DNA of 64,000 nt, taken from contig AP019755.1 of NCBI GenBank assembly GCA_006742785.1, positions 1,178,001 to 1,242,000 on the forward strand. Reading direction: 5' to 3'. Shown piece after piece: positions 31,775-64,000 of the stretch. This stretch comes from Nitrosomonas stercoris. Its GTDB lineage: Bacteria; Pseudomonadota; Gammaproteobacteria; Burkholderiales; Nitrosomonadaceae. The notes under the pieces are model-generated. The model did not search any database, was not told the DNA's origin, and saw nothing but the letters and a program-made list of their open reading frames with translations. Numbering within the stretch: position 1 is the first letter of the stretch; the number at the start of each line of letters is the position of its first letter. The position numbers were made by a program, and so were the translations under genes.

Positions 31775-32707
<933 letters not shown>

Positions 32708-54520: not shown

Positions 54521-55001
54521 TGCAGCTGAAAAGAGTGGATTGGGTACAGCTGATAAGGCGGTTTTTTCTTCGGGAACAGTGCTTGCCTTCGATTTTGGCA
54601 TGCGTCGTGTAGGCGTGGCGATTGGCGAATATGAATTACGATTGGCACACCCTTTGATAACCATTGATCAAGCAGTTAATAAACATCGCTTCAAGAAAAT
54701 TGCGGAGCTGATCGAGGCATGGCGGCCAGTTCTATTGGTAGTGGGTTTGTCCGTGCATGCGGATGGCACCGAGCATGAAATAACCCAGTCGTGCCGTCGT
54801 TTTGCCAAACGATTAAAGGAGCGATTTCATCTTCCAGTAATTATGGAAGATGAGCGCTATACCACAGTGATGGCTAGCTTAATATTGGAAGAAATGGGTA
54901 TTACAGGTAGAAAGCAACGTCCGATGTTGGATCAGCTGGCAGCACAGTGTATTCTTCAAACTTTTTTTGATTCGTCCCCACATGCAACTTCCGGATGCTG
55001 A
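54513..55001 (+). CDS. ruvX: RuvX/YqgF-family nuclease (putative Holliday junction resolvase, pre-16S processing)
   Basis: A 162-residue RNase H-like nuclease. [15 protein letters not shown] supplies the first Asp, [18 protein letters not shown] the central acid, and [14 protein letters not shown] plus [18 protein letters not shown] the final acids. E. coli YqgF matures the 16S rRNA 5' end. ATG 54513 has GAGG six bases upstream; an in-frame ATG at 54501 exists. It overlaps algH and pyrR. Confidence 0.94.
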
Positions 55002-55485
55002 ACAGTTACTAGCACTGCTGATCAAAAAGATACAGCCAGACGTCACGAATGACACTGCTGTTGTGGGTATTCATACTGGCGGCGTATGGTTGGCGGAACG
55101 CATTCATCGAATACTAAAAATCAAGCAACCGGTGGGGGTGCTGGATATTTCTTTTTATCGTGACGATTACAGCAAAATTGGCCTGCATCCGCGCGTGAAA
55201 CCTTCCCAGCTTTCCTTTGAAGTTGAGAATAGTCATATTATTTTAGTGGATGATGTACTGTATACAGGCAGAACTATTCGCGCAGCAATCAATGAATTAT
55301 TTGATTATGGTCGTCCCACTAGCATCCATTTGGCTGTTTTAGTCGATCGAGGGGAGCGAGAATTACCTATTGCTGCACGCTATACTGGCACTGAGTTGGC
55401 CTTGCCAAAAAATAGCATGCTTGAACTGGTGCAAATGGATGATGGCAGACTGCAATTGGAATTGCGACATATCGTAACCAATTAA
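54982..55485 (+). CDS. pyrR: PyrR-family regulator/uracil phosphoribosyltransferase
   Basis: A 167-residue type I phosphoribosyltransferase. The PRPP loop is VILVDDVLYTGRTIRAAINELFDYGRP (shown here in part: IILVDDVLYTGRT), with AVVGIHTGGVWLAERI, LDISFYRDDYSKIG and AVLVDRGERELPI. In Gram-positives PyrR attenuates pyr operons; in proteobacteria it is found beside pyrB, as here, with a less clear regulatory role. Start ATG 54982 lies inside ruvX (20-bp overlap). Confidence 0.95.
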   Translation: MQLPDAEQLLALLIKKIQPDVTNDTAVVGIHTGGVWLAERIHRILKIKQPVGVLDISFYRDDYSKIGLHPRVKPSQLSFEVENSHIILVDDVLYTGRTIRAAINELFDYGRPTSIHLAVLVDRGERELPIAARYTGTELALPKNSMLELVQMDDGRLQLELRHIVTN

Positions 55486-55621
55486 GGAGCTTTTAAAAAT
55501 TGATGCCTTCTGCGCTAAAAACGATCTGAAGTGTTTGTAATATGGATATTTTTAAGCACGCTTAATGTAAATATGTTGATGTGTTGAGTTATTTTATTAT
55601 TGCTTTTTGGGGTTTGTTGTT

Positions 55622-56575
55622 GTGATAGGTATCAATCCCCAATTGGATCGCAACGGTGATTTGCGGCATCTGCTAACCACCGAGGGACTACCTATTACAA
55701 TTTTGCAGCGTATTCTGGATACGGCCGAATCGTTTGCTGGTGTCACCGAGCGCGAAGTGAAAAAAATCCCTCTATTGCGCGGCAAATCGATATTTAATCT
55801 CTTTTTTGAGCCGAGCACCCGCACGCGTACTACTTTTGAAATTGCAGCGAAACGGCTATCAGCAGATGTCATTAATCTTAATGTGGCAGTTTCATCGCAA
55901 ACTAAGGGCGAAACGTTACTGGATACGGTTAATAACTTATCCGCCATGCATGCTGATATGTTTGTAGTGCGTCATAGTCAAAGCGGTGCAGCACATTTGA
56001 TTGCCCAACATGTTGGCCCGGACATTCACGTCATAAACGCTGGAGATGGGTGGCATGCTCATCCGACACAAGCGTTGCTGGATATGTTTACTATCCGTCG
56101 TTACAAACAGGATTTTCGAGCATTGCGCGTTGCTATTATTGGCGATATTTTGCATTCTCGAGTGGCACGTTCGCAGATTCACGCGTTAGCAACGTTAGGT
56201 GTACCTGAAATTCGTGTGATTGCGCCTAAAACTTTGTTGCCAGCCAAAATTGAGCGATTAGGAGTGCATGTTTATCACAATATGGCGCAGGGTTTGAAAG
56301 ATATTGACGTGTTGATGATGTTGCGTTTACAGCATGAACGTATGGAATCGGCCCATTTGCCGAGCACTGAAGAATATTTTAAATATTATGGCTTGACACC
56401 AGAGAGACTGGCATTGGCTAAATCAGATGCAATTGTGATGCATCCAGGCCCAATGAATCGTGGCGTAGAAATTGATTCGGAAGTTGCTGATGGTGCCCAA
56501 TCTGTTATTTTGCCTCAAGTAAGTTTTGGTATTGCTGTGCGTATGGCAGTCATGTCGATGCTTACTAAGAATTAA
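55622..56575 (+). CDS. pyrB: Aspartate carbamoyltransferase catalytic subunit
   Basis: A 317-residue ATCase catalytic chain. The carbamoyl-phosphate motif [70 protein letters not shown] and [12 protein letters not shown] are all present. It condenses carbamoyl phosphate with aspartate. I start at GTG 55622 (GGGG nine bases upstream). No pyrI is present; the following pyrC' gene, 11 bp away, fits the dodecameric PyrB-PyrC' class of ATCase. Confidence 0.96.
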
Positions 56576-56586
56576 GATCTGTTTTT

Positions 56587-57861
56587 ATGCGTGTTTGTAT
56601 CCGAAATGGCCGTTTGATTGATCCTGATAGTGGATTAGATCGTGTTGGGGATCTTTACCTGACGAAAGGGAAAATTGCATCAATTGATGTGCAGCCAGAT
56701 GGGTTTTATGCAGAGCAAGAAATTGATGCAAATGGCTTGATTGTATGCCCTGGCCTGGTTGATTTATCTGCGCGTTTGCGCGAACCAGGGCTTGAATATA
56801 TGGCAACTTTGGAATCAGAGCTGGAGGCGGCTGTGGCAGGAGGGATTACCAGTCTTGCTTGTCCGCCAGATACTGATCCACCATTGGATGAACCCGGCTT
56901 AGTAGAAATGCTTAAATATCGTGCGCATAATCTTGAGCGGACACATGTTTATCCAATAGGGGCATTGACTCAAGGATTGAAGGGCGAGCGTTTGACAGAG
57001 ATGGTTGAATTGCATGATGCTGGATGCATAGCGTTTAGCCAAGCGGATGCTCCCATTGCTAATTTGCATGTGTTATTGCGTGCAATGCAATATGCGGCTA
57101 CTTTTGGTTTTAAAGTTTGGTTGCATCCGCAGGATGTGTATTTAGCCAATCATGGCGTGGCACATGATGGAGAAATTGCTACTCGCCTGGGTTTGCCGGC
57201 CATTCCAGTGTGTGCGGAAACGATCGCATTAACGGATATTTTATCCTTGATGAGAGAGACGGGAGCAAGTGTGCATGTGTGCCGTATTTCCAGTGCAGAA
57301 GGAGTAGCGTTAGTACGTGCGGCAAAACAACAAGGATTGCCACTGACCTGTGATGTGGCTGTTCATCATGTGCATTTAATTGATATGGATATCGGCTTTT
57401 TTGATACGAACTGTCATCTTATTCCGCCGCTTAGAGGATTAGCAGATAGAAACGCGTTACGGGCAGGCTTAATGGATGGAACGATTGATGCAATTTGTTC
57501 TGACCATGCGCCAGTAGATGAGGATGCTAAGTTGTTGCCATTTGCGCAGGCGGAAGCTGGTGCAACTGGATTGGAGCTGTTGCTACCCTTGACGTTAAAA
57601 TGGGCGACAGAGAGCAAAGTATCGTTAGCGGATGCACTTGCAAAAGTTGTATCTTATCCAGCGCGTATCTTGGGTATCGAAGCAGGATGTCTTGCTATCG
57701 ATGCCCCAGCTGATGTCTGTATCTTTGACCCAGAAGCCTATTGGGTTGTTAGCGATACTACGTTGAAAAGCCAGGGTAAAAATACGCCATTTCTTGGATT
57801 GGAATTAGATGGTTGCGCCCAATTTACTCTTATTAATGGTCGTGTTGTGTATAGCAGATGA
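56587..57861 (+). CDS. pyrC': Inactive dihydroorotase-like ATCase subunit PyrC'
   Basis: A 424-residue amidohydrolase of the type I dihydroorotase branch. The block that is D-x-H-x-H-x-R-E-P-G in active enzymes reads DLSARLREPG at residues 59-68, so both metal-binding histidines (61 and 63) are Ser and Arg. The later KVWLHPQ, VHVCRISS and CSDHAPVDED segments are kept. This matches the non-catalytic PyrC' of Pseudomonas, which scaffolds PyrB. It is 11 bp from pyrB. An active dihydroorotase must be encoded elsewhere. Confidence 0.92.
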   Translation: MRVCIRNGRLIDPDSGLDRVGDLYLTKGKIASIDVQPDGFYAEQEIDANGLIVCPGLVDLSARLREPGLEYMATLESELEAAVAGGITSLACPPDTDPPLDEPGLVEMLKYRAHNLERTHVYPIGALTQGLKGERLTEMVELHDAGCIAFSQADAPIANLHVLLRAMQYAATFGFKVWLHPQDVYLANHGVAHDGEIATRLGLPAIPVCAETIALTDILSLMRETGASVHVCRISSAEGVALVRAAKQQGLPLTCDVAVHHVHLIDMDIGFFDTNCHLIPPLRGLADRNALRAGLMDGTIDAICSDHAPVDEDAKLLPFAQAEAGATGLELLLPLTLKWATESKVSLADALAKVVSYPARILGIEAGCLAIDAPADVCIFDPEAYWVVSDTTLKSQGKNTPFLGLELDGCAQFTLINGRVVYSR

Positions 57862-60249: not shown

Positions 60250-61374
60250 GTGTCTGACCGTCCACGTGCTGTTCTTGTTTTGGCTGATGGTACTGTTTTT
60301 CACGGAGACTCTATTGGTGCTGAAGGCTTAGCTGTTGGAGAGGTAATCTTCAACACGGCGATGACAGGTTATCAAGAAATCTTAACGGACCCCTCTTATA
60401 GCAGTCAGCTTGTAACACTGACTTATCCTAGTATTGGCAACACCGGTGTGAACAGTGAAGATACTGAGTCAACACAGAGCGCTAAAGTAGTTCATGCTGC
60501 TGGTTTAATCATTCGGAATTTATCACTTGTCACGAGTAATTGGCGTTGTCAGCAATCGTTACCTGATTTTCTTAAGCAACACAACACCCTAGCAATTTCT
60601 GGAGTTGATACACGCAAACTCACACGCATTCTGAGAAAAAAGGGAGTGTTGGCCGGTTGTATTATGGCTGGTCGTATTGACGAAGCGGAAGCTTTGCAGC
60701 AGGCACAAACATTTCCTGGGTTGATTGGTATGGATTTGGTGCGCACAGTCAGCTGCCATCAATCTTGGGGGTTTAATGGAAGCCAGCAAAATTCAGAGCT
60801 AGATCAACGGGTAGCTGTGCTGGATCTTGGTGTAAGAAAATCCACTTTGAATAAACTAGCTGCATTGGGATGTCGTGTAACTGTTTATCCAGCGCAGACT
60901 AACGCTGAAAAAATTCTTGCTGCGCAGCCTGATGGGATTGTACTTTCTAGTGGACCAGGCGATCCGCAGGCTTGTAATTACGCTATTGAAACAGTACGTG
61001 CCTTATTGACGAGCGATATTCCGGTATTAGGGATCCATCTGGGTTATCAGCTGATTGCTTTGGCTGCTGGTGCTAAGACGATCAAGATGAAAGTCGGGCA
61101 TTATGGCGCTAATCATCCCGTACTGGAATTAGATAGTGGTCAAGTGATCATCACTAGTCAAAATCACGGGTTTGTAGTAGATGTAGATTCCTTACCAGCT
61201 AATGCACGCATCACGCATCGTTCTTTATTTGACAATGGTTTACAAGGGTTTGAGTTGACGGATTATCCTGTTTTTTGTTTTCAGGGACAAGCTGAAACCA
61301 GAGTAACCTCCCAAACTACCGATTATTTGTTAAGTCGTTTTATTAACCGAATGACAGTAAACAAGCAAGTCTAG
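60250..61374 (+). CDS. carA: Carbamoyl-phosphate synthase small subunit with degenerate glutaminase site
   Basis: A 374-residue CarA with a complete N-terminal domain (AVLVLADGTVFHGDSIG, TGYQEILTDPSY, ISGVDTRKLTRILRKKG). The class I amidotransferase domain follows, but its nucleophile elbow reads GIHLGYQ instead of GICLGHQ (His263 replaces the catalytic Cys), and FQGHPEAS is FQGQAETR (Gln347 replaces the triad His; Glu349 is kept). Glutamine hydrolysis should therefore be lost, leaving a structural subunit for an ammonia-fed CarB. The remaining blocks (LSSGPGDP, AKTIKMK, SQNHGF) are normal and the frame is unbroken. Start is GTG 60250 with GGGGAG upstream; TTG 60238 is in frame. Confidence 0.95.
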   Translation: MSDRPRAVLVLADGTVFHGDSIGAEGLAVGEVIFNTAMTGYQEILTDPSYSSQLVTLTYPSIGNTGVNSEDTESTQSAKVVHAAGLIIRNLSLVTSNWRCQQSLPDFLKQHNTLAISGVDTRKLTRILRKKGVLAGCIMAGRIDEAEALQQAQTFPGLIGMDLVRTVSCHQSWGFNGSQQNSELDQRVAVLDLGVRKSTLNKLAALGCRVTVYPAQTNAEKILAAQPDGIVLSSGPGDPQACNYAIETVRALLTSDIPVLGIHLGYQLIALAAGAKTIKMKVGHYGANHPVLELDSGQVIITSQNHGFVVDVDSLPANARITHRSLFDNGLQGFELTDYPVFCFQGQAETRVTSQTTDYLLSRFINRMTVNKQV

Positions 61375-61409: not shown

Positions 61410-64000
61410 ATGCCTAAGCGTACCGATCTGAAGTCTATCCTTATCATAGGTGCTGGGCCGATTGTTATCGGTCAGGCATGTGAATTTGATTATTCTGGTG
61501 TGCAGGCCTGTCGGGCGTTACGAGAAGAAGGTTATCGTGTCATTCTGGTTAATTCCAATCCCGCAACGATTATGACAGATCCGGAATTGACTGATGCAAC
61601 CTATATAGAGCCGATTACTTGGCAAGTGGTAGAAAAAGTCATTGAAAAAGAGCGGCCAGACGCATTACTACCAACAATGGGAGGACAAACTGCTCTTAAT
61701 TGTGCGTTGGATTTAGTGCGGCATGGTGTGTTGGAGAAATACGGTGTAGTCATGTTAGGCGCTTCACGTGAAGCAATTGATATGGCGGAAGATCGTGAGA
61801 AATTCAAACAAGCCATGACCCGTATTGGGTTGCAATCCGCGCGTTCTGCGATGGCACATAGTATGGAAGAGGCTTTTCGAGCGCAGGCTGTGATTGGCTA
61901 TCCAGTCATTATTCGACCTTCTTTTACATTGGGAGGAAGTGGTGGAGGGATTGCCTATAACCGTGAAGAGTTTGTAGAAATTTGTGAGCGTGGTTTGGAA
62001 GCTTCACCAACACGTGAGCTGCTGATTGAAGAATCGGTGATCGGCTGGAAGGAGTTTGAGATGGAAGTTATCCGTGATAAGAAGGATAACTGCATCATTG
62101 TCTGCTCCATTGAAAATGTCGATCCGATGGGGGTGCATACGGGTGATTCTATTACAGTAGCGCCGGCTCAAACCTTAACAGACAAAGAATATCAGCGTAT
62201 GTGCGCTGCTTCTATTGCGATATTGCGCGAGATTGGGGTGGAAGCAGGTGGGTCTAATGTCCAGTTTGCGATCAATCCTGACAATGGCGATATGTTGGTG
62301 ATTGAAATGAACCCGCGGGTATCACGTTCCTCTGCGTTAGCTTCAAAGGCCACTGGTTTTCCTATCGCCAAAATTTCAGCCAAATTAGCTGTCGGATATA
62401 CCTTGGATGAATTGGATAACGATATAGTGGGTGGGGTGATCCCAGCTGCGTTTGAACCTACTATTGATTATATCGTCACCAAAATACCACGTTTTGCGTT
62501 TGAAAAATTCCCACGAGCAAATGATCGCTTAACGACGCAGATGAAATCTGTGGGTGAGGTGATGGCGATTGGCCGCACTTTCCAGGAGTCTTTGCAAAAA
62601 GCGTTACGAGGATTGGAAATTGGTGTCAATGGATTAGACGAAAAAACGACAGATATAGAAACAATTAAAGCAGAATTGGGGCATCCAGGACCAGAACGAT
62701 TATGGTATGTAGCAGATGCTTTTCGTTGTCATATTTCCTTTGATGAAATTCATGCGCTCACTCGTATTGATCCTTGGTTTTTGGCGCAAATTGAAGATTT
62801 GGTACGGCAGGAGCGAGTACTTACAGGTAAAAAATTATCTGTATTAACACGGGGTGAGCTGTATCAGTTAAAGCGTAATGGTTTTTCAGATCGACGTTTG
62901 GCTACTTTGCTTGCTATTGATCAAGGTGAGGTGCGTGCTAGACGTCATCAGTTGGATCTACGTCCGGTTTATAAACGGGTTGACACTTGTGCTGCGGAAT
63001 TTGCCACACAAACAGTTTACATGTATTCAACCTATGAAGAAGAATGTGAATCTGATCCAACTGACAGAAAAAAAATTATAGTGCTGGGCGGCGGACCAAA
63101 TCGTATTGGCCAGGGGATTGAATTTGATTATTGTTGCGTACATGCAGCATTAGCGCTGCATGAAGATCAGTACGAAACCATTATGATTAACTGTAATCCT
63201 GAAACTGTTTCGACGGATTATGATATTTCGGATCGTTTGTATTTTGAGCCATTGACGCTAGAGGACGTACTTGAAATTGTCGCTGTAGAGAAACCGTTTG
63301 GTGTTATCGTGCAGTATGGTGGTCAGACTCCATTGAAGCTGGCACAAGAATTAGTAGAAAATGGCGTACCAATTATCGGTACCAGTTCAGATATGATTGA
63401 TTGTGCTGAAGATCGTGAACGCTTTCAGGTTATGCTGCAAACACTTGGTCTCAAGCAACCACCTAATTTTACTGCTCGTACCCCGGAAGAAGCACTGGCG
63501 GCAGCCGATGATATTGGTTATCCGCTAGTTGTGCGGCCAAGTTATGTATTAGGTGGCCGAGCCATGGAGATTGTCCATGAAGCGCTTGATCTGGAGCGCT
63601 ATATGCGGGAGGCAGTCAAAGTGTCAAATGATTCACCAGTATTATTGGATCATTATCTCAGTAATGCAATTGAGGTCGATGTCGATGCGGTGTTTGATGG
63701 AGAAAATATCCTGATTGGTGGCATTATGGAGCATATTGAACAGGCAGGTGTACATTCTGGTGATTCCGCTTGTTCGTTGCCCCCTTTTAGTCTCTCCAAT
63801 GCTTTACAGCAAGAATTACGACGACAAACCGAGGCGATGGCACGAGCGCTGAATGTTAGGGGGTTAATGAATGTTCAGTTTGCTATTCAAGATAATGTGG
63901 TTTATGTGTTGGAAGTGAATCCTCGGGCATCACGTACGGTGCCTTTTGTTTCCAAAGCAACAGGTTTGCCGTTGGCCAAGATTGCTGCGCGTTGTATGGC
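61410..64000 (+). CDS. carB: Carbamoyl-phosphate synthase large subunit, 3' end outside window
   Basis: The frame from ATG 61410 runs without a stop to the window edge: 863 codons of an expected ~1070. [42 protein letters not shown], the first ATP-grasp ([34 protein letters not shown]) and, after the oligomerisation region, the second half ([53 protein letters not shown]) are intact. It uses ATP, bicarbonate and ammonia to make carbamoyl phosphate for pyrimidines and arginine. It starts 35 bp after carA. The C-terminal allosteric domain is not in view. Confidence 0.97.

Follow-up and report, generated by a model that had tools for sequence, protein, structure and literature searches.

A carbamoyl-phosphate synthetase small subunit of Nitrosomonas stercoris that lacks the glutaminase Cys and His, and its predicted dependence on free ammonia

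Results

The stretch of DNA analysed here (the window) consists of 64,000 nucleotides of contig AP019755.1 of the Nitrosomonas stercoris assembly GCA_006742785.1, and it includes the small-subunit gene and part of the large-subunit gene of a carbamoyl-phosphate synthetase (CPS). The genes pyrR, pyrB and pyrC are located upstream of carA, carB adjoins carA downstream, and argB lies elsewhere in the window. The genes considered in this study are the following:

31811..32707, + strand: argB, acetylglutamate kinase, which belongs to the arginine pathway and is the source of a weak carbamate kinase match
54967..55485, + strand: pyrR, pyr regulator / uracil phosphoribosyltransferase
55607..56575, + strand: pyrB, aspartate carbamoyltransferase, a consumer of carbamoyl phosphate
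56587..57861, + strand: pyrC, dihydroorotase
60250..61374, + strand: carA, carbamoyl-phosphate synthetase small subunit, GTG start, 374 aa
61410..64000, + strand: carB, large subunit, 1065 aa; it leaves the window and the whole gene is G000:C1:1239410-1242604

The carA reading frame (60250-61374, + strand) is uninterrupted across its 374 codons, and the translation contains the two GATase motifs in the forms PVLGIHLGYQL and CFQGQAETRVTS. The product scored 415.1 bits against the small-subunit family TIGR01368, for which the cut-off is 307.35, and its PF00988 domain was also over the cut-off. Together with the complete carB, these results agreed with a preliminary description of this DNA, according to which the carA frame, the N-terminal domain and carB look intact. 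A profile search of the genome returned a single PF00988 match and therefore no second carA was found; the preliminary description had named such a copy as evidence that would overturn its reading. A structure model of CarA generated from 57 sequences had a mean pLDDT of 87.3; an earlier model from 15 sequences was poor (mean pLDDT 67.1) and was set aside. The top Foldseek match of the model used was E. coli CarA (1cs0_B, TM 0.92 by query length), followed by human CPS1 (TM up to 0.86). The PDB also contains 1m6v, a G359F small-subunit mutant.

Alignment with E. coli K-12 CarA showed that the Cys-His-Glu triad is incomplete: the place of Cys269 is taken by His and that of His353 by Gln, while Glu355 is retained as Glu349. 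The codons to which the preliminary description had assigned the two replacements, CAT and CAA, proved to be exact. The altered features of CarA are listed below, where G009 is the closest genome.

60760..60813, + strand: interdomain linker, counted as 18 residues here and in G009 but as 26 in 81 genus rows
60835..60837, + strand: K202R (Arg196), within the genus common only to G009
60949..60951, + strand: N240S (Ser234), Asn in all other rows, G009 included
61036..61038, + strand: CAT, His263 in place of the catalytic Cys269 (alignment with E. coli K-12 CarA)
61288..61290, + strand: CAA, Gln347 in place of the catalytic His353 (alignment with E. coli K-12 CarA)
61288..61311, + strand: loop QAETRVTS versus HPEASPGP (H353-P360), with 7 of 8 residues replaced, G359T and P360S among them, and only Glu355 kept

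According to a published account of the E. coli enzyme, Cys269 and His353 are essential for glutamine hydrolysis (PMC6245113). H361 is altered as well with respect to E. coli, and since this position is variable among ordinary CarA proteins its change carries little meaning here. The Gly293 place is occupied by Ala, as it is in 82 of 84 genus rows. K202 and N240 are presumably residues of the glutamine pocket. Gln273, Asn311, Gly313, Phe314, Gly241 and Glu355, all of which we take to be part of the glutamine site, were retained in the alignment. Their retention speaks for a re-engineered glutaminase, in which His263 or some other residue would act as a new nucleophile and glutamine would still be used. 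Nonetheless, the protein has lost Cys269 and His353 along with K202, N240 and the greater part of the loop that follows H353, and we know of no class I amidotransferase with a His nucleophile; a glutaminase of this kind seems very unlikely.

The catalytic residues were then compared across relatives. A carA match at E <= 1e-30 was obtained in 84 of the 85 genus genomes searched, the one without such a match being G032. The Cys269 place is occupied by Cys in all 82 other Nitrosomonas genomes with a CarA that reaches it; these 82 readable proteins all retain His353 and Glu355, and after GICLG their motif continues with H, L or Q. Among named genome records, Cys, His and Glu were present in 80 of 80 loci, these being the best 80 of at least 600 matches and including at least two Nitrosomonas loci already counted in the genus set. 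In a sample of the phylum, 126 of 130 genomes matched carA. The loci read were 89 of the 125 besides that of N. stercoris itself, namely the 29 best-scoring and 60 others, mostly the lowest-scoring, and the three residues were retained in all 89, one of which (G067) belongs to the genus. Cys269 and His353 were thus conserved in all other rows having a residue there. The loss noted in the preliminary description is real in this genome, but the comparison with relatives did not make it a trait of Nitrosomonas; it is evidently confined to one lineage.

Other observations were made in the course of this comparison. Seven other Nitrosomonas CarA proteins (L026, L028, L039, L047, L031, L035 and L071) have GICLGLQ or GICLGQQ for GICLGHQ, with an intact triad. 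Genome G043 has two carA pieces about 1.47 Mb apart (L084 and L087), and L084 is partly unreadable at its second motif. No carA match at E <= 1e-30 was obtained for G095, G111 and G193, three same-class genomes that are rated 100% complete.

The extent of the change was estimated by counting departures from conserved positions, defined as those with at least 95% conservation in the genus after dropping eight partial rows. N. stercoris CarA departs at 29 such positions and none of the 78 other full-length rows at more than 9; the GATase domain accounts for 21 of the 29 (among 99 sites) and the N-domain for 8 (among 91). A change carried by one genome only is also what a sequencing or assembly error could leave behind, an objection that the preliminary description had raised against itself. 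The 29 changed positions exclude chance or a base-calling slip; all of them are in frame, 12 conserved CarB sites are changed too, R265C among them, and a separate genome, G009, has K202R and the short linker as well. The probability that we assign to such an error is almost negligible.

Branch lengths were fitted on a CarB tree of 15 Nitrosomonas. The branch leading to the N. stercoris genome measured 0.116 for CarB, 0.258 for the CarA N-domain and 0.507 for the GATase domain. The second-longest GATase branch, 0.313, belongs to a taxon with 0.213 for CarB. In comparisons with three relatives the dN/dS of the GATase domain was about 0.12-0.19, approximately twice the value among those relatives, and these figures are rough because dS was above 1. 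CarA therefore evolves fast, yet its dN/dS is well below 1. Part of the change may reflect a speed-up of the whole lineage, since the CarA N-domain is also accelerated and CarB has 12 departures. Considering the open frame, the confident model and the low dN/dS, CarA has to all appearances been preserved as a protein while its active site was destroyed.

G009 provided information about timing. Its contig (L085) ends at CarA residue 243, ahead of the catalytic residues, and over these 243 residues the two proteins are 77% identical. They have in common K202R, a linker shortened by eight residues and four other rare residues, while G009 retains N240 as well as F193, C51 and H61 (the last three in the numbering of the N. 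stercoris protein). Because K202R, the short linker and the rare residues are shared, some of the CarA changes must, as far as this alignment goes, predate the split from G009. No carB match was found in the incomplete (80%) assembly of G009, and the same query finds carB in both the N. stercoris genome (G000) and G041.

The preliminary description had also considered that carB looks intact, and the gene is in fact complete, codes for 1065 aa and is present in single copy, as the sole CPSase_L_D3 match in the genome. CarB is 86.5-89.4% identical to that of six clade relatives, to which CarA is 68.5-70.3% identical; for a seventh relative, G010, the values are 85.1% for CarB and 64.2% for CarA. 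Full-length CarB proteins were obtained from 89 of the 96 loci searched, that of N. stercoris included. The N. stercoris protein retains those catalytic and gate residues that were checked. It departs at 12 of 519 conserved positions, compared to 0-7 in the 14 other Nitrosomonas. These departures are not enriched in residues 1-400 (7 of 12, p 0.37); six of the 12 fall within 265-355 (p 0.002), an interval picked after looking. One of them is the following:

62202..62204, + strand: CarB codon 265, Cys (R265C), equivalent to E. coli R265; Arg in 88 of 88 other CarB proteins

R265 of CarB, like P360 and H361 of CarA, is a residue that we take to line the ammonia tunnel. Kim and Raushel reportedly described in 2004 mutants at P360, H361 and CarB R265, of which the triple mutant (P360A/H361A/R265A) is said to perforate the tunnel.

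One CarA and one CarB match were found in the genome and hence no second CPS. Carbamate kinase, considered as an alternative source of carbamoyl phosphate, was discarded: its sole match, 22.4 bits against a cut-off of 358.25, lies inside argB. With a single CPS, no carbamate kinase over its cut-off and the consumers present, carbamoyl phosphate should therefore come from CarAB. The genome also has glnA, so that glutamine can be made, a point that counts against ammonia as the donor.

The search was extended to other class I glutaminases. Only three class I glutaminase domains (PF00117) were found in the genome, those of PyrG, CarA and GuaA. PyrG, with motifs GICLGMQ and FHPE, and GuaA, with GICYGMQ and FHPE, both keep Cys and His. 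HisH (TIGR01855) had no match in the genome, and the same profile matched 14 of 14 control genomes, 13 of them over the cut-off. The TrpG/PabA profile (TIGR00566) matched only CarA and GuaA, below the cut-off, and again 14 of 14 control genomes matched. The synthase halves are present: HisF is complete (365.8 bits, cut-off 294.55) and so is TrpE (554.7 bits, cut-off 517.7). HisFH is represented by HisF and TrpEG by TrpE, with HisH and TrpG not found. The two intervals examined next to these genes are:

G000:C1 about 1,585,261-1,585,482 (L329:18961-19182): 222 bp gap between hisB and hisA, without hisH
G000:C1 about 2,059,884-2,060,859 (L326:9884-10859): 976 bp downstream of trpE with no ORF of 100 aa and, by eye, the look of a decayed transposon

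The histidine genes are arranged as hisC-hisB-[222 bp]-hisA-hisF-hisI-hisE at about 1.583-1.587 Mb and hisG-hisD at about 2.006-2.008 Mb, and each of the eight scored over its own cut-off. In E. coli hisH is located between hisB and hisA, whereas N. stercoris has the 222 bp in that place; a search of the gap for a hisH remnant, with the E. coli query only, found nothing better than chance. The trpE gene is at about 2.058 Mb, after rpe and gph (both named by eye). trpG, trpD and trpC are absent next to it, and the search for a trpG remnant there gave nothing better than chance. In G032, of the same genus, trpG, trpD and trpC are consecutive, and no trpE was seen in what was read of it. None of trpD, trpC, trpA and trpB of N. 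stercoris appeared in the 1,280,353 of 2,320,919 bases (55%) of contig 1 that were examined. This genome may therefore have a broken tryptophan pathway, in which case the loss of TrpG is uninformative.

Within the same 55% of contig 1, neither a histidinol-phosphate phosphatase nor HisZ was identified, and the phosphatase part of E. coli HisB had a weak match elsewhere only. GlmS, PurF, PurL and NadE had no match and GltB and GltD weak matches only, in a scope, this 55%, that says little about them. An ORF of 2531 residues with the look of a type I polyketide synthase by eye (L323:4844-12439) was observed near ORFs that resemble IS transposases.

As three synthases at once are without a recognisable working partner, another glutaminase could be imagined to serve CarB, and HisF and TrpE, in trans. 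The search for class I (PF00117) proteins yielded only PyrG and GuaA besides CarA, both of them on one chain with the synthase that they serve, and within the scope of this one fold we regard the explanation as extremely unlikely. Genome erosion is a different possibility, which partly overlaps with the use of ammonia: with pyrimidines, arginine, histidine or tryptophan supplied from outside, glutaminases would decay under relaxed selection and CarAB would be on its way out, so that the donor would hardly matter. In its favor, the genome, with 2.38 Mb, is among the smaller ones of the genus; trpG, trpD and trpC are missing beside trpE where the 976 bp resemble a decayed transposon; the CarA N-domain evolves mildly faster than expected from CarB; and CarB is altered at more conserved sites than its counterparts in the 14 other Nitrosomonas. 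However, a dying enzyme would be expected to lose CarB too, and CarB is complete, close to that of its six clade relatives and in possession of the catalytic residues that were checked; moreover, pyrR, pyrB, pyrC, argB and the eight his genes are present and over their cut-offs. Erosion on its way to the loss of CarAB is thus rather improbable.

Discussion

The explanation that we favor, and consider highly probable from the sequence evidence, is that CarAB of N. stercoris is ammonia-driven, with a CarA that is dead as a glutaminase, structurally retained and perhaps part of a broader abandonment of glutaminases. CarAB would make carbamoyl phosphate from bicarbonate, ATP and free ammonia, and the ammonia would enter the carboxyphosphate site of CarB from solution instead of coming from glutamine split in CarA. 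With the glutaminase site lost, the donor left is ammonia, unless a glutaminase that escaped recognition helps. We infer that CarAB has no activity with glutamine and that ammonia is the donor in vivo. CarA would have been retained because CarB needs it for structure, tunnel or regulation. The preliminary description had predicted an ammonia-dependent CPS, and its prediction now has the backing expected of a strong inference: Cys and His are lost, the rest of CarA appears intact, CarB is complete and there is no second carA.

The change in CarA would belong to a wider abandonment of separable class I glutaminases, HisH and TrpG/PabA, while HisF and TrpE remain. The absence of HisH and TrpG from the genome makes the ammonia reading more credible. 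Ammonium is presumably high inside Nitrosomonas, and the plentiful ammonia available to an ammonia oxidiser would make the loss of glutaminases tolerable. The preliminary description had invoked abundant ammonia as permitting the loss; the missing HisH and TrpG/PabA support this view, but the loss of the CarA residues concerns one lineage and is not found genus-wide. In its fullest form, which has about an even chance of being correct, the proposal is that this Nitrosomonas lineage dropped the separable class I glutaminases as a group, kept the dead CarA and reopened the tunnel mouth (loop H353-P360 and CarB R265C) to cytoplasmic ammonia. Histidine, carbamoyl phosphate and possibly anthranilate/aminobenzoate would then be made from free ammonia, with the fused PyrG and GuaA still on glutamine.

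Published work on other organisms points in both directions. E. coli CPS can use ammonia, but as described in one article this occurs at very high, likely physiologically irrelevant concentrations (PMC6245113), which counts against the proposal. External ammonia is stated to support normal activity of E. coli variants whose tunnel is blocked or perforated (PMC4655335). Minimal medium with ammonia supports growth of a C. glutamicum mutant from which hisH was deleted, a fact that its authors, citing unpublished observations, credit to an ammonia-using HisF; the same source counts against such use in reporting that loss of hisH makes E. coli and Salmonella auxotrophic even with ammonia in the medium (PMC3896937). 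The C. glutamicum mutant resembles N. stercoris in that the synthase half suffices there in ammonia medium. It is however a laboratory deletion in a species whose wild-type hisH is functional, whereas in N. stercoris hisH is naturally absent, there is no TrpG and the CarA site is dead.

By family score, two-domain fold, carA-carB order and single copy, N. stercoris CarA is like the CarA of bacterial CPS II (TIGR01368; E. coli). It is unlike it in Cys269, His353, seven of the eight residues of H353-P360, K202 and N240. The TIGR01368 family is named glutamine-hydrolysing, and the N. stercoris member is without the triad; judging by the alignment, it is a CarA by descent that fails the triad by which a glutamine-hydrolysing CarA is defined.

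The preliminary description had proposed a bacterial parallel of CPS I, which holds for the predicted function but not for the architecture: carA and carB are separate genes here, with no fusion of the subunits. N. stercoris CarAB is like vertebrate CPS I in the lost nucleophile, in the GATase fold kept and in the conserved large half, and it has additionally lost His353. In human CPS1 the Cys is replaced by Ser, hence glutamine is unusable and ammonia is taken from the environment, according to the 2015 CPS1 structure paper, which adds that all CPS types but CPS1 take glutamine as endogenous ammonia source (PMC4655335). Ammonia is the known donor in CPS I and the presumed one in N. stercoris. 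The N. stercoris enzyme would work like a CPS I, yet it would not be one.

The tunnels differ as well. CPS1 closes the old tunnel with Gln318 at Gly293, as reported with its structure (PMC4655335). N. stercoris has Ala at that place and is instead changed at G359, P360 and CarB R265. These are positions altered in the E. coli tunnel mutants G359F (1m6v) and, reportedly, P360A/H361A/R265A; those mutants were made in the laboratory and keep the triad, which N. stercoris has lost.

In the available portions of the open-licence PMC literature, no report was found of a bacterial CarA without the triad or of a joint loss of CarA, HisH and TrpG function. Enzymes are usually held to channel ammonia out of glutamine because free ammonia is scarce and reactive. 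If the proposal is true, N. stercoris would offer a natural test of this idea, in which abundant ammonia makes the glutaminases of CPS, HisFH and perhaps anthranilate synthase dispensable, and its CarA would reveal what CarB still needs from the small subunit once glutamine hydrolysis is gone.
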